Source: Halalkalicoccus sp. CGA53
GTDB lineage: Archaea; Halobacteriota; Halobacteria; Halobacteriales; Halalkalicoccaceae
Length of the DNA: 64,000 nucleotides
Reading direction: 5' to 3'
Assembly: GCF_036429475.1 (NCBI RefSeq)
Contig: NZ_CP144125.1
Coordinates: 1,612,001 to 1,676,000, forward strand
The translations under genes and the position numbers were made by a program. Under the pieces are notes generated by a model, which saw only the letters and a program-made list of their open reading frames with translations, was not told where the DNA came from and did not search any database. Below, piece after piece: positions 6,619 to 30,517 of the stretch; position 1 is the first letter of the stretch, and every line of letters starts with the position of its first letter.

Positions 6619-7161
6619 ATGGGATCCGGTCGGATCACGCTGTACGTCGCGACGAGCCTCGACGGGTTCGTCGCGGACGAGCAGGGTGGGGTCGCCTGGC
6701 TCGAAGCGTTCGACGGTACCGACGAGGACGAAGGACGGAGGAGTTACGAGGCGTTCTTCGAGAGCGTCGACTGTCTGGTGATGGGGTCGCGAACCTACGA
6801 GCAGGTCCTCGGCTTCGGCGAGTGGCCCTACGGGAGAAAGCCGACCTACGTCGCGACGAACAGAGACCTCCCTCGCGCGACGGAACGAATCGAGTTCGTT
6901 TCGGGTGAGATCGGATCGATCGCCGACGACCTCACGAGCGAGTACGACCACGTCTGGCTCGTTGGCGGGGCGGCGTTCGCAGGGTCGTTTCTCGCCGCGG
7001 ATCGTGTCGACGAGATCCGGCTTTCTGTCGTTCCGCTGTTGCTCGGCGACGGGATCTCGCTGTTCGGAGACGGCACTGGAGAGCACAGACTCGCGTTACT
7101 GGACAGTACGGAGCACTCGAACGGTATCGTCGAACTCCGCTGCAGGGTGGGCGAGAGCTGA
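6619..7161 (+). CDS. Dihydrofolate reductase-family (RibD C-terminal-like) protein
   Basis: A 180-residue protein of the DHFR/RibD-C fold, which binds NADPH. It starts with the typical ITLYVATSLDGFVAD. The nucleotide-binding VMGSRTYEQVLGF lies near residue 55, and WLVGGAAFAGSFL near 114 corresponds to the GG(A/G) loop. Bacterial and archaeal members of this short form are poorly defined reductases, often called YwjB- or YyaP-like. True folate activity is not implied. The ATG at 6619 is chosen because the fold begins six residues later, whereas upstream in-frame sequence lies inside the SRPBCC gene. Confidence 0.85.
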   Translation: MGSGRITLYVATSLDGFVADEQGGVAWLEAFDGTDEDEGRRSYEAFFESVDCLVMGSRTYEQVLGFGEWPYGRKPTYVATNRDLPRATERIEFVSGEIGSIADDLTSEYDHVWLVGGAAFAGSFLAADRVDEIRLSVVPLLLGDGISLFGDGTGEHRLALLDSTEHSNGIVELRCRVGES

Positions 7162-7627
7162 TTGGCCTTTCGGAGGGCATCGTAGACCTCATCGGCAGGC
7201 GTTGTTACCGACGACGAGGAGTAGAATCGGCCGCTCACGAGAGATGTGTACTGACCGCCGAGAGATGTACCACTCAGCGTAGATCTTCAGAGACTCGTGC
7301 TGAATACACGGCGTGAATGTGGCACCAGGCGTTGGTGGATCGTTACGGAGTCGGATCGGTCAGTGCAGGGGATCCATGAACCACTGATTCTCAGATAATT
7401 CGATGTACAAGAAACTTACTCGACTCCAACATCTATTCACAAGGTGGCCCTCCACCGCCGGTGGAGCATCGAATTCCGTACTAACCCAAGTTGAGTTAGC
7501 GAAACTTTGCAAGCGGTCATCTAGTACTCCTCGTTCGAACAAACGATAGTCAACTGTGGACACCGCTACGTGCCTGCACAGAGTAATGAGCCTATAGCCA
7601 GAATTCCCATCCGGGGAGACGTTCGAC
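7162..7627. other. Gene-poor stretch at the start of a decayed region
   Basis: About 466 bases, visibly richer in A and T than the surroundings, without a supported gene. A short stretch in one frame (7453-7479) reads HRRWSIEFR, which recalls the end of some haloarchaeal transposases but is bounded by stops. An inverted repeat CTAAC / GTTAG is present at 7481-7499. The stretch may hold eroded gene remnants. Confidence 0.4.
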
Positions 7628-24777: not shown

Positions 24778-27700
24778 GTGGATCCGAGAGCCCGATTGCT
24801 CTCCGCGATCACGAACCGGAGCCGCACCGTCATCGCGGTCGTGCTCGTCCTCACGCTCGTCCTCTCGGGGGGTCTCGGCGCGATCGACGACGCCGCCTCG
24901 CTCGACCAGTTCGAGACCGAGAGCGCGGAGGCCGACGAGCTCGACTACATCACCGACCGCTTCGGCGACGGGGAGAACACGACGAGCGTCCAGGTGGTCG
25001 TGCGGGACGAGAACGTGCTCTCGCGCGACTCGCTGCTCGAGTCACTCCGGTTCCAGGAGGACCTCCGTGGTAACGAGACGGTGAACGGGACGCTCGCCGA
25101 GGATCCGTTCGGCGACCTCGCACTGACCGTCGCCAGAACGGCGATCATCGAGGAGGAGGCCGACGCGCTCGAGGAAGAGGCCGACGACCTCGAAGCACGC
25201 GCCGACGAACTCGAGGCGGAGGCCGACGACCTGGAAGAACGCGGCGAGGAACTCGAGGAGCGCGGCGACGACCTGGAAGAACGTGGCGAGGAACTGGAGG
25301 AGCGCGGCGACGAGCTCGAAGAACGTGGCGAGGAGCTCGAAGCGCGTGGCGAGGAACTCGAGGCGGACGCCGAGGAGCTCGAAGCACGCGAGGCCGACCT
25401 CGAAGAACGTGGCGAGGAGATCGAAGCCGACGCGGCCGAACTCGAGACGCGTCAGGAGCAACTCGAGTCCGACGCCGCCGACCTCGAAGAACGCCGGGAA
25501 GCCCTCGAATCCGACGCCGCCGACCTCGAAGCGGAGGGAGAGGCGATCGACGAGCGTCGGGCGGAGCTCGAAGCGCGTCAGGAACAACTCGAAGCCGACG
25601 CGGCCGACCTCGAAGCACGCGAGGAGGCGCTCGAGGAGGACTGGGCCGACTACGAACGACGTGCACAGGAGCCGGACGCCGACGAGGAAGCACTCGCCGC
25701 CGAGGAGGAGGAGCTCGAAGAGCGTCGGGCGGTGCTCGAAGCCGACGCGGCGGCGCTCCAGGAACGGGAAGAAGCCCTCGGGGAGGACTGGGCCGAGTTC
25801 GAATCGGACGCGGCGGAACTCGAAGAGCGCCAGGCGGATCTCGAGGAACGTAGCGAGGAGCTCGAAGCGGACGGCGAGGCGCTTGAAGAACGACAGGAGG
25901 AACTAGAGGCCGACGGGGCGGAGCTCGAAGCGCGACAGGAGCAGCTCGAGTCGGACGCTGCGGACCTCGAATCGGACGCTGTGGACCTCGAAGCTCGCGC
26001 CGACGAACTGGAGGAGGAGCGTGAGGAGCTGGAGCGGGAGGCCGACGAGCTGGAGGAGGAGGTCGACGAACTCGAAGCGGAGGCCGACGAGCTGGAGGAG
26101 GAGGTCGACGAACTCGAAGCGGAGGCCGACGAGATCGAGGAGGAGGCCGACCGGCTCGAGGAGGAAGCCGACGAACTGGAGGCGGAAGGTGAGGCGCTGG
26201 AGGACGAAGCCGACGCGCTCGAAGACGAGGCCGACGACCTCTCGGACCTCGATCCGTCCCTGGAAGAACGGATCGAACAGCTGGAGTCGATGACCGACCA
26301 GGAGGTCGAGGACGTCGTCGCGGACTTGCTCGACGAGGACGCCGACGACGGGTTGTTCGTCTTCCTCCCGACGGCGTTCGAGCCGGGCTCGACCGAGGCG
26401 GACGCCCGGATGTTGTTCGTCACGCAGCTCTCGGAGGAGGAGGTCGTCGAGGGCGAGGCGCCCGACCGGATCGTCGACTCGCAGCTCGCGGTCGCCGACC
26501 TCGCCGACGACCGGTTCGACGACGCGGTTGTGCTCGGCTCCGGGATCATCTCCGACGAGATCGACCGCTCGCTCGACGACAGCCTGCTGATCGTGCTGCC
26601 GCTCGCGCTGGTGTTCGTCGCGGTCGTGCTCTCGGTCGCCTACCGCGACCCGTTCGACATCCTCCTGGGGATGTTCGGCGTCGTCGTCGTCCTCGTCTGG
26701 ACGTTCGGGTTCATGGGCTGGATCGGCATCGACTTCAACATGGTGATGGTCGCGGTCCCCGTGCTGCTCATCGGGCTCTCGATCGACTACGCGATCCACG
26801 TCTTCATGCGCCACCGCGAGCAGCGGGCGAGCGACGGAGGTTCGACGAGACGGGCGATGGCGGTCGCGCTCTCGGGGCTCGGGCTGGCGCTCGTCTGGGT
26901 GACCGCGACGGCCGTGATCGGCTTCCTCTCGAACCTCGTCAGCCCCGTCGGGCCGATCCGTGAATTCGGCGTCGTCAGCGCGTTCGGCATCGCCTCGGCG
27001 CTCGTCGTCTTCGGGGTGTTGCTCCCGGCGACGAAGCTCGAACTCGACGCGATGCTGGAGCGGAGGGGGATCGACCGCGAGAAGCGGGCGTTCGGGACCG
27101 GCGGTGGCCGGTTCAGCACGTTCCTCTCCGGCGGCCAGCGGATCGCTCGGCGTGCGCCCTGGGTGGTCGTCCTCGTCGCGCTCCTCCTGACGGTGGGCGG
27201 GGCGGCCGGCGCGACGCAGGTCGACACGACGTTCGAGCAGGAGGACTTCATCGCGGACGACCCGCCGGAGTGGGCGAGCGCGCTTCCCGGCCCGTTCGCG
27301 CCCGGCGACTACTCCGCGAAGAGCACGCTAGAGTACGTCGACGAGTACTTCGTCCGCGGTGACTCGCAGGCACAGCTCCTCGTCAGGGGCGAGCTGACCG
27401 ACGACGACACGCTCACCCGGATCGACGCCGCGGAGCGAGAGGCGGGGAACGCGGACGTGACGGTGACGCTCGCGAGCGGCGGCGCGGACGTCGACGGGCC
27501 GGTCTCGGCCATGGAGGACGTCGCCGACGAGGACGACGCGTTCAACGAGACGTTCGCGGGTGCGGATACGACCGGCGACGGCGTCCCCGACTCCGACGTC
27601 GAGAGCGTCTACGACGCCTTCTTCGAGGCCGACAGCGACCGGGCGGCGGACGTGCTACACCGCACCGACGAGGGCGAGGTCGAGTCGGCACGGATCGTCG

Positions 27701-28398
27701 TCTCGGTCCGCGGCGACGCACCCTCCGGCGAGGTGACCGAGGAGATGCGTGCGGTCGCGGCGTCGCTCGACGGCGACGGCCTGGTCGCGAGCGCGACCGG
27801 CCAGGTGATCGTCTTCCACGTCGTTGAGCAGGAGCTCTTCTCGACGGTGATCGAGAGCCTGCTCGTGACGCTCGTCGCCGTCTTCGCCTTCCTGATGGCG
27901 GGGTACCGCTGGCTCCACGGCAGCGCGACGCTCGGGGCGATCACGCTCGCGCCGATCGTCTTCTCAGTGGCTTGGATCCTCGGATCGATGTACCTCCTGG
28001 GGATCTCGTTCAACGTGATGACCGGGCTCATCACCAGCCTCACCGTCGGGCTGGGCGTGGCGTACAACATCCACATGACCGAACGCTACATGCTCGAACG
28101 CGGCCGGGGAGCGGACACCTGGGAGGCGCTCTCTCGAGCCGTCACCGGGACGGGTGGGGCACTCCTGGGGAGCGCGGCGACCACCGTCGGTGGGTTCGGG
28201 GTGCTCGTCTTCGCCATCCTCCCGCCGCTCCAGCAGTTCGGCCTCATCACTGGCCTGACCATCGTCTACGCGTTCTTCGGGAGCGTCTTCGTCCTCCCGA
28301 GTTTCCTCGCGCTCTGGACGCGCTATCTCGCGCCCGAGGGGGTTTCGGTTCCGACGCTATCGGTGGGTACCCGGGAGGCCGCAGGCGATAACGACTGA
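24778..28398 (+). CDS. RND/MMPL-type exporter with a giant heptad coiled coil
   Basis: A 1206-residue protein of the archaeal HAE3/MMPL branch of RND transporters. The first transmembrane helix is at residues 17-33. Residues about 125-488 are a nearly perfect heptad array (LEERGEE, LEADAEE, LEARQEQ), inserted in the first extracellular loop. Five helices follow (about 595-760) with SIDYAIHVFMRH, which carries the Asp typical of the proton relay. The second half repeats this (helices from about 790 and 1020-1195), but its matching motif is GVAYNIHMTERY, with Ala instead of Asp. GTG at 24778 starts the protein. Lipid or hydrophobic-compound export is the family role. What the coil reaches or binds is unknown. 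Confidence 0.88.
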   Translation: MDPRARLLSAITNRSRTVIAVVLVLTLVLSGGLGAIDDAASLDQFETESAEADELDYITDRFGDGENTTSVQVVVRDENVLSRDSLLESLRFQEDLRGNETVNGTLAEDPFGDLALTVARTAIIEEEADALEEEADDLEARADELEAEADDLEERGEELEERGDDLEERGEELEERGDELEERGEELEARGEELEADAEELEAREADLEERGEEIEADAAELETRQEQLESDAADLEERREALESDAADLEAEGEAIDERRAELEARQEQLEADAADLEAREEALEEDWADYERRAQEPDADEEALAAEEEELEERRAVLEADAAALQEREEALGEDWAEFESDAAELEERQADLEERSEELEADGEALEERQEELEADGAELEARQEQLESDAADLESDAVDLEARADELEEEREELEREADELEEEVDELEAEADELEEEVDELEAEADEIEEEADRLEEEADELEAEGEALEDEADALEDEADDLSDLDPSLEERIEQLESMTDQEVEDVVADLLDEDADDGLFVFLPTAFEPGSTEADARMLFVTQLSEEEVVEGEAPDRIVDSQLAVADLADDRFDDAVVLGSGIISDEIDRSLDDSLLIVLPLALVFVAVVLSVAYRDPFDILLGMFGVVVVLVWTFGFMGWIGIDFNMVMVAVPVLLIGLSIDYAIHVFMRHREQRASDGGSTRRAMAVALSGLGLALVWVTATAVIGFLSNLVSPVGPIREFGVVSAFGIASALVVFGVLLPATKLELDAMLERRGIDREKRAFGTGGGRFSTFLSGGQRIARRAPWVVVLVALLLTVGGAAGATQVDTTFEQEDFIADDPPEWASALPGPFAPGDYSAKSTLEYVDEYFVRGDSQAQLLVRGELTDDDTLTRIDAAEREAGNADVTVTLASGGADVDGPVSAMEDVADEDDAFNETFAGADTTGDGVPDSDVESVYDAFFEADSDRAADVLHRTDEGEVESARIVVSVRGDAPSGEVTEEMRAVAASLDGDGLVASATGQVIVFHVVEQELFSTVIESLLVTLVAVFAFLMAGYRWLHGSATLGAITLAPIVFSVAWILGSMYLLGISFNVMTGLITSLTVGLGVAYNIHMTERYMLERGRGADTWEALSRAVTGTGGALLGSAATTVGGFGVLVFAILPPLQQFGLITGLTIVYAFFGSVFVLPSFLALWTRYLAPEGVSVPTLSVGTREAAGDND
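25150..26245 (+). repeat. Degenerate 21-base coding repeats (about 52 heptads)
   Basis: Within the RND gene the DNA repeats with a 21-base period. Units code for Leu-Glu-x-x-(Ala/Gly/Arg)-(Asp/Glu)-(Glu/Asp). Leu would take the d position and Ala or Gly mostly the a position of the heptad. Neighbouring units such as LEERGEE and LEERGDE are almost identical, which points to expansion by tandem duplication. Confidence 0.85.
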
Positions 28399-28480
28399 TA
28401 CGGACCGCTGTACCCGTGTACCGCTCGGACCGGGAGGCGGGCACCGATCCGACCGGTACAGACTACGACGATCCGTATTA
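28399..28480. repeat. Dispersed intergenic repeat of about 80 bases, copy A
   Basis: It starts one base after the RND stop codon. Its left end TACGGACCGCTGTACC and the following CGCTCGGACCGG match the copy at 52750-52828 with few differences over about 35 bases. The right end again carries GGTAC and ATCCGT. Its terminal inverted repeat is imperfect: ACGGA pairs with TCCGT, and the rest is eroded. It may be a mobile miniature element, or a structured RNA or terminator element. Confidence 0.5.
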
Positions 28481-28551
28481 TCGGTCTCCGGTACCGGCTC
28501 GACCTCCGCGAACCGAACGGTTCAATCGCCTGCCGACCGATAGCGACGAGG

Positions 28552-29237
28552 GTGAAGAGGATCGGACTCTCCGCGGTCGACGGGGCGGGCAAGACCACGG
28601 CGACGAGGGCCGTCGAACGACGACTCGGAGACGACGGCGAGAGGATCGAGACGCTTCACTGGCCGAACGACTCGCTGGTCGTGCTCCTGCCTCGAAAATC
28701 GGGACGACTCGCCTCCCGGGTCGCGGCCACCGTCGGAAACGACCGCCTCCGCTCCGAGGTGGCCCGGACCACGGTTCCCGGGAACGGCGGAGGGAGGTCC
28801 GGCGAGCGAGCCGTGGTCGCTCGACTCCGCGGGGCCGTCTTCGCCTCGCTGCTCGTGCTCGCGTTCTGTCTCGTCCTCGTGAACGAACGGGTGATGCGGG
28901 TCACCCTCCCCCTCCGGTACCCCGTCGCCGACCGGATCGTCCTCGACCGCTCCGCGTTCGACGACCTGGTCCATCTCGAGTACCTCGGGCTACCCGCTTC
29001 GCTCGTCGACCGCGGGATCGCGGCGATCGACACGACGGGGATCTCCCTGATCGACGTCCCGCCGGCGGTCGCGATGGCCCGGGACTCGGGAGTGGACGGT
29101 TCCGATCACCCCCCGTCCTACTACCCGGAGAAGGCGCCCTCTACCGGCGGTACGCCGATCGTCACGGGATCGCCCGACTCGACGGGACGGACGAGGTCGA
29201 CGTGCTGTGTGGGTGGATCGTTCGCGGGAGCCCGTAA
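28552..29237 (+). pseudogene. Thymidylate kinase-like P-loop protein with a frameshift
   Basis: A GTG-started frame with a nucleotide-kinase P-loop (SAVDGAGKTTATRAVERRL, residues 7-25). A hydrophobic stretch lies at about residues 99-112, and LDRSAFDDLVHLEYLGLP at about 128 corresponds to the dTMP kinase DR motif. After YYPEKA (about 29137) the homologous end continues in another frame as LYRRYADRHGIARLDGTDEV to a TAA at 29235-29237. Restoring one base near 29134-29138 gives about 228 residues. The hydrophobic insertion is unusual for a thymidylate kinase. Either recent inactivation or sequencing error explains the shift. Confidence 0.7.
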
Positions 29238-29395
29238 CCCCTTCGACGGGTCCGGTTCGCCGTTCGGTGGCCCTCTGCAGAACGGCGTCGGCCCGTCATC
29301 TCCACGGACGCCAGACCTCCCCGTGCTCGCGACCACGGGCGTCCGTGGACGACGAACCCCGCACAGTTATCGGGCTCCCACGCGCTCGGTAGCCC

Positions 29396-30517
29396 ATGAC
29401 GGAGTTCTCACGGCGCGTCGAGGCGGTGTCGATCAGCGGCATCCGCGAGGTGTTCGAGGCGGCGGGCGCCGACGCGATCAACCTCGGGATCGGCCAGCCC
29501 GACTTCCCCACGCCCGAGCACGCCCGCGAGGCCGCCCTCGCCGCGATCCGGGAGGGAAAGACCGACGGCTACACCTCGAACAAAGGTACCAGAGAGCTTC
29601 GCGAGGCGATCAGTTCCCGGTACCGGGCCGACTGGGACCTGACCGTGGACCCGGGCGATATCATCGCGACCGCGGGCGGGAGCGAGGCGCTCCACATCGC
29701 CCTGGAGGCACACGTCGATCCGGGTGAAGAAGTGCTCTTTCCCGACCCGGGGTTCGTCTCCTACGACGCGCTCACCCGGATCGCCGACGGGGTGCCGAAG
29801 CCGCTCCCGCTACGCGAGGACCTCACGCTCGACCCCGAGGTGGTGGAGGAGGCGATCACCGACGAAACGGCGGCGTTCGTCGTCAACAGCCCCTCGAACC
29901 CGACTGGTGCGGTGCAGTCGACCGATGACATGCGCGAGTTCGCCCGGATCGCCGACGAGCACGACGTCCTCTGTATCTCCGACGAGGTGTACGAACGCAT
30001 CGTCTTCGAGGGCGAACACCGCTCGCCGCTTTCGTTCGCAGAGAGCGACAACGTCGTCGTCGTGAGCGCCTGCTCGAAGACCTACTCGATGACCGGTTGG
30101 CGACTCGGCTGGGTCACCGCGAGCACGCGACGGATCGAGCGGATGCTCAGGGTCCACCAGTACGTCCAGGCGTGTGCGAGCGCGCCGGCGCAGTACGCCG
30201 CCGAGGGCGCTCTGCGGGGGCCACAGGACGTCGTCCGCGAGATGCGCGAGACGTTCGAAGAGCGCCGGGACCTCGTCCTCGACGGACTGACCGACGCCGG
30301 CCTGGAGACGCCCACGCCGCAGGGCGCGTTCTACGCGATGCCGAAGGTCCCCGAGGGCTGGGTCGCCGAGGTGCTCTCGCGCGGGGTGATCGTCGTCCCC
30401 GGCGAGGCGTTCGGCGCGAACGGCGCGGGCCACGCCCGGCTCTCCTACGCCACGGGCACCGAGGAGCTGAAGGAGGCGCTCTCGATCATCCACGAGGCGA
30501 CGCGGGCCGTCCGATAG
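29396..30517 (+). CDS. Pyridoxal phosphate-dependent aminotransferase (aspartate-type)
   Basis: A 373-residue fold-type I, class I/II aminotransferase. It should move an amino group between an amino acid such as aspartate and 2-oxoglutarate. The N-terminal substrate region is INLGIGQPDFPTPEHA. SNPTG (about 164) contacts the carboxylate, and SDEVYERIVF follows. The Schiff-base lysine is in SACSKTYSMTGWRLGW (about 227). The C-terminal arginine is in ARLSYATG. Length and motif order are standard for archaeal AspC. The exact amino acid cannot be read from sequence. Confidence 0.93.
   Translation: MTEFSRRVEAVSISGIREVFEAAGADAINLGIGQPDFPTPEHAREAALAAIREGKTDGYTSNKGTRELREAISSRYRADWDLTVDPGDIIATAGGSEALHIALEAHVDPGEEVLFPDPGFVSYDALTRIADGVPKPLPLREDLTLDPEVVEEAITDETAAFVVNSPSNPTGAVQSTDDMREFARIADEHDVLCISDEVYERIVFEGEHRSPLSFAESDNVVVVSACSKTYSMTGWRLGWVTASTRRIERMLRVHQYVQACASAPAQYAAEGALRGPQDVVREMRETFEERRDLVLDGLTDAGLETPTPQGAFYAMPKVPEGWVAEVLSRGVIVVPGEAFGANGAGHARLSYATGTEELKEALSIIHEATRAVR

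Follow-up and report, generated by a model that had tools for sequence, protein, structure and literature searches.

The window, a 64,000-nucleotide stretch of the genome of Halalkalicoccus sp. CGA53, contains at 24778..28398 an intact open reading frame with a GTG start that encodes an HAE3/MMPL-type RND exporter of 1206 amino acids bearing a long stalk (this and all features below lie on the forward strand). The protein matches the MMPL family (PF03176) over two stretches (E=1.6e-36, 126 bits against a gathering cut-off of 20.5), and its top fold matches in a structure search are MmpL5 and MmpL4. On the basis of these domain and fold matches, it is a member of the RND superfamily, of the MMPL type. 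The best NCBIfam match is HAE3 (TIGR00921; E=1e-64), yet the score of 218.8 bits does not reach the curated cut-off of 351.9 bits. By sequence, the nearest solved structure to the core is the hopanoid transporter HpnN (PDB 6wu0, 5khn), whose matches are confined to the transporter core and leave the stalk unmatched. Matches to bZIP, SMC and Rad50 in the Pfam and NCBIfam searches were dismissed as reflecting coiled-coil composition only.

From residue 493 onward (26254..28395), the Pfam matches, alignment anchors and structural model place the rest of the porter region, the transmembrane core and a second outer loop that is free of coil. Transmembrane helix 4 carries an Asp-Tyr pair (D670-Y671; 26785..26790) and helix 10 an Ala-Tyr pair (A1095-Y1096; 28060..28065). 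Both pairs occur in 107 of 107 sequences, so the clade as a whole lacks one acidic residue of the usual relay. The same genome also encodes the RND paralogues L002 and L003 (G000:C2:419381-421897 and 112362-114764), whose first loop is short and which have Asp at the helix 10 position.

The genes beside the exporter encode PAC2, kinase-like and aminotransferase proteins. The kinase-like gene lies downstream (28416-29727; MKRIGLSAVDGAGKTTATRAV...) and has an apparent frameshift near its 3' end, at about 29150-29240; its counterpart in a metagenome-assembled genome (MAG) of the same genus, L037, is an intact frame of 255 amino acids (6651-7418). Among relatives, a TrmB-type regulator sits directly 3' of the exporter gene in 46 cases (for example L105:8283-9044), a TetR-type regulator lies upstream in 19, and a gene with a metallo-beta-lactamase fold is a neighbour in 29. 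The TrmB-type regulator is not seen beside the CGA53 gene, and the recurrent neighbours of the relatives differ in kind from those in CGA53. No conserved partner gene was obtained from these comparisons.

The first outer loop of the exporter contains a leucine heptad register that runs without a break from L131 to L488 (25168..26241), a distance of 51 x 7 = 357 residues. Every position of this single register is Leu or Ile, with the exceptions of Y292, P299 and F341, and the period-7 spectral power of the segment is 6.3, compared with a maximum of 1.44 among 5000 shuffles. The first-pass annotation, which described an RND exporter with an array of about 52 heptads in this loop, was therefore essentially right. 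Residues 125-488 include 135 Glu, 67 Ala, 46 Asp, 46 Leu and 29 Arg, for a net charge of -152, and 15.6% of the residues in the segment are hydrophobic. Small residues occupy position a and Leu position d, and charged residues fill 92-100% of positions e and g. Two aromatic pairs, W289 (a) with Y292 (d) at 25642..25653 and W338 (a) with F341 (d) at 25789..25800, approximately mirror one another across a turn that lies between them. It is established across the RND superfamily that loop 1 is extracytoplasmic.

AlphaFold2 models the insertion, as a monomer, as an antiparallel hairpin whose two arms are equal, at about 27 nm each (model m19d218998aee; protein numbering is model numbering + 6; lengths are helix residues multiplied by about 0.15 nm). 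The predicted N-terminal arm is a helix of 183 residues (114-296; 25117..25665, about 27 nm), the turn comprises residues 297-302 (AQEPDA; 25666..25683) with P299 at a core d position, and the C-terminal arm is a helix of 186 residues (303-488; 25684..26241). The pLDDT of the hairpin is mostly 80-90 at the tip and base and 40-50 in mid-arm. Given these mid-arm values and a shallow alignment of 38 sequences, the exact pairing of the arms is uncertain.

To compare the insertion across relatives, we searched with the transporter core in 147 related genomes and in a named genome collection, extracted the open reading frames, and took insertion length as the distance between conserved anchors on the N and C sides. 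In CGA53 the insertion spans residues 119-492 (374 amino acids). With this exporter included, 101 of 105 homologues carry at least 100 amino acids at the same site, with a range of 112-792. Thus, the comparison of homologues and heptad counts suggested in the first-pass annotation revealed a conserved position with variable length. That annotation had also regarded a compact loop in homologues as evidence against its reading; such loops do exist, but in only four members (L017, L040, L041 and L073; 19-42 amino acids). These four sequences indicate that some members can dispense with the stalk. Insertion lengths cluster at multiples of seven (59 of 105 leave no remainder; the modes are 154, 175 and 203), and lengths of 154 and 175 recur over many genera. 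A phylum-wide sample of 295 genomes gave matches at E <= 1e-40 almost entirely within the order of the host, with three genomes outside it. One of the three, G155, encodes relatives of 1240 and 1117 amino acids (46-50% identity), the longer of which aligns through the stalk region (46%). The 101 stalks contain 488 N-glycosylation sequons against 80 expected, a six-fold enrichment that is strong in L050, L070, L094 and L055 and that fits an extracytoplasmic location; there are none in the stalk of the CGA53 exporter or its lineage.

Most relatives differ from the CGA53 protein in the form of the insertion. In the model of the Halorussus aquaticus homologue (L055; pLDDT mostly 85-93), the insertion opens with a long helix (115-189), makes three turns and closes with another long helix, which ends at residue 319. 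We read this predicted form, the canonical one, as a two-helix stalk topped by a four-helix head, about 75 residues and 11 nm in extent. The genus Halalkalicoccus is without the canonical head, which is retained in members of the same family (L042, L010, L011). Head-less, long stalks of pure heptads also occur in Halocatena and Haladaptatus, on a separate branch, and in those of Halocatena a Pro-Pro break lies at most about 3 residues from the midpoint of the insertion. The protein from L037, with a core 92% identical to that of CGA53 and the same unbroken register, has an insertion of 311 amino acids, exactly nine heptads shorter. Two features of this protein speak against the hairpin reading: neither Pro nor any other turn can be recognised in its insertion, and the nine heptads are not split evenly between the arms. 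In Natronococcus and Natronolimnohabitans relatives the hairpin occurs in tandem, in at least three copies. Tandem arrays of three or more units of about 150 amino acids make up the insertions (447-792 amino acids) of L067, L069, L075 and L104 (Natronococcus), L068 and L077.

The lengths of the two arms are closely matched. Measured with profile HMMs of the head region, which leave the head class of some divergent members uncertain, N- and C-arm lengths form the series (24,14), (31,21), (38,28), (45,35), (52,42) and (66,56) in one head class and (27,7), (41,21), (48,28), (55,35), (62,42) and (69,49) in the other. The difference N minus C is nearly constant within each class (10 in 23 of 28 sequences and 20 in 38 of 57), and each arm moves in heptads. 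Contrasts were then taken from a maximum-likelihood tree, built from the core by a quick method, by choosing edge-disjoint pairs whose arm lengths differ. Both arms changed equally, within 2 residues, in 15 of 20 contrasts (class A, 6 of 6; class B, 9 of 14), where about one was expected from permutations (P = 1.5e-4 for class A; 0 of 20,000 permutations for class B); the changes were unmatched in five class B contrasts. Matched changes imply that the arms pair with each other. This is strong evidence, from sequence comparison, that the insertion is a hairpin in which selection keeps the arms matched, and the two change together in heptad steps. The sequence patterns and predicted models agree in giving the insertion the equal arms and central turn of an antiparallel coiled-coil hairpin.

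These observations bear on the idea, put forward in the first-pass annotation, that the segment is one continuous helix of about 50 nm. The unbroken heptad register would suit such a helix. Counter to this, AlphaFold2 predicts a hairpin about 27 nm long, and the arms covary in relatives. Furthermore, the four homologues that bridge the site with a short loop indicate that the chain has to return to the same porter domain. We therefore regard a single helix as extremely improbable.

The same mode of length change is known from the hairpins of chemoreceptors (MCPs), antiparallel coiled coils whose length evolves, as in the stalk, by symmetric seven-residue insertions and deletions (PMC5907407). 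Unlike the stalk, these hairpins serve in signalling within the cytoplasm, their tip is strongly conserved and they are not part of a transporter; the parallel lies in the mode of evolution only (PMC5907407).

At the DNA level, the array does not consist of the near-identical 21-base units described in the first-pass annotation. Adjacent 21-bp units share 60.5% of their bases, against an expectation of 58.7% from shuffling synonymous codons (z = 2.3), and for units two spacings apart z is 3.7 against the same shuffle. One recent tandem duplication of 42 bp, or two heptads, is evident at 26037..26133, with exact repeats of at least 50 bp at 26037 and 26079. Recent slippage was rejected as the main source of the array, as this event alone is clear. 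With unit identity near the shuffle level, we infer that most of the array is old and that its regularity has been kept at the level of the protein. An artefact of assembly through repeat expansion, raised earlier as a concern, was also rejected: the genome is in two contigs and 99.7% complete, the independently assembled L037 MAG has the same register, and the insertion is found across the clade.

Could the stalk be low-complexity sequence whose growth is merely tolerated, with slippage on 21- or 42-bp units lengthening it and selection purging only changes that break the hairpin? The fresh 42-bp duplication in the CGA53 gene, the wide variation in length even between sister proteins (374 and 311) and the survival of members with short loops are in keeping with this. 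However, unit identity barely above the level of the synonymous shuffle indicates that most units are old, lengths of 154 and 175 persist in many genera, and the arms have repeatedly been kept equal. On balance we consider tolerated growth quite unlikely.

Alternatively, the stalk might be a ruler, its length tuned in each species to the thickness of the wall or S-layer. Long forms are found in cocci, among them Natronococcus (452-792 amino acids) and Halalkalicoccus (272-342 amino acids), and the wall of Natronococcus occultus is a glycosylated polyglutamine (PMC4243693), which we count in favour of a ruler together with the conserved position of the insertion and its matched arms. Against this, paralogues within one genome are far apart in length, at 175 and 403 in Haladaptatus pallidirubidus and at 175 and 449 in a Natrialbaceae MAG. 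These pairs weaken the ruler role proposed in the first-pass annotation. In addition, the longest Natronococcus forms are tandem hairpins of about 150 amino acids and not a longer single one, and the insertion of Natronococcus pandeyae is just 217. We regard such tuning as very unlikely.

According to the first-pass annotation, no established RND subtype is known to have a coil of this kind. However, MmpL4, MmpL5 and MmpL10 of mycobacteria (PDB 8zkp, 9syt), the nearest known counterparts, combine, like the CGA53 exporter, the RND/MMPL fold with a long extracytoplasmic coiled-coil hairpin inside a porter domain, albeit in the second loop (PMC12501195, PMC12183618, PMC12803245). For MmpL5 and MmpL10 it has been proposed that the hairpins of three protomers build a six-helix tube that leads substrate off the membrane, and the stalk could be a conduit of the same design. 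In line with this, MmpL5 and MmpL4 are the best fold matches, the MmpL hairpin is required for export and trimerisation (PMC12501195, PMC12183618), and the canonical stalk with its head, at about 11 nm, is close to the 13 nm of MmpL5. The differences are nevertheless considerable. The mycobacterial coil lies in the second (PC) domain (PMC12803245), is half hydrophobic (128 of 255 residues in MmpL10; PMC12183618), trimerises and extends about 13 nm (PMC12501195, PMC12183618, PMC12803245), whereas the coil of the CGA53 exporter lies in the first loop, is 16% hydrophobic and is predicted to reach about 27 nm, with insertions of 112-792 residues in relatives, the typical ones of which bear a four-helix head. 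Moreover, e and g positions so heavily charged are ill-suited to an alpha-helical barrel. As both a PC-domain insertion and the hydrophobic, multi-face helices of a barrel are absent from the CGA53 exporter, whose insertion (119-492) is in the first loop, we do not place it in the MmpL coiled-coil group. A conduit is, in our view, unlikely; the almost uniformly charged e and g positions and low hydrophobicity suggest a two-helix rod in place of a sealed six-helix drug tube of the MmpL5 type.

The RND permeases of haloarchaea, among them HVO_A0467 from Haloferax volcanii, share superfamily and taxon with the CGA53 exporter (PMC11349517). HVO_A0467 forms a pair with HVO_A0466, an Ig-like gene, in contrast to the neighbours of the CGA53 gene, and 'extensive coiled-coil regions' are named in passing for haloarchaeal RND proteins, in connection with the filtering of BLAST matches (PMC11349517). 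Our search of the accessible literature found no description of stalked haloarchaeal RND proteins beyond such a passing mention of coiled coils.

We therefore favour the reading, with a probability of roughly 0.7, that the CGA53 protein is an RND exporter with a rigid antiparallel hairpin on its first porter domain, which projects about 27 nm outward and serves as a spacer or tether. Comparison of relatives establishes the conserved position of the insertion and the co-variation of its arms by heptads, as far as sequences can; the models predict a stalk of two helices, which in typical relatives carries a four-helix head and in CGA53 is long and head-less. The hairpin would project from the outer face of the membrane into the space below the S-layer or wall, or through it. 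As a spacer or tether, it may fix the pump, and in most relatives the head, at a set distance from an anchor, for which a component of the wall or S-layer, another subunit of the pump, or a partner are candidates. The Haloferax S-layer has been reported to have narrow pores only (PMC8640222), which would give a pump reason to reach the S-layer in a putative contact.

Looking across the clade, we tentatively suggest, as a possibility that falls well short of the reading above, that stalked RND exporters of haloarchaea arose independently, with the hairpin in the half of the pump opposite to that in mycobacteria. The stalk could then be an adjustable mechanical spacer, altered by pairs of heptads or by the copying of entire hairpins, and by docking the pump to the S-layer or wall it would allow cargo to be released on the far side. 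To date, the coiled-coil extensions studied on RND pumps have been those of mycobacteria, for which a conduit role is proposed. In the large archaeal clade described here, the coil occupies the opposite half of the pump and ranges in length from absent to very long, and these natural variants may allow a conduit to be told apart from a spacer. The coordinated heptad changes are also a clean example of two distant sites in one protein co-evolving, otherwise described for chemoreceptors.
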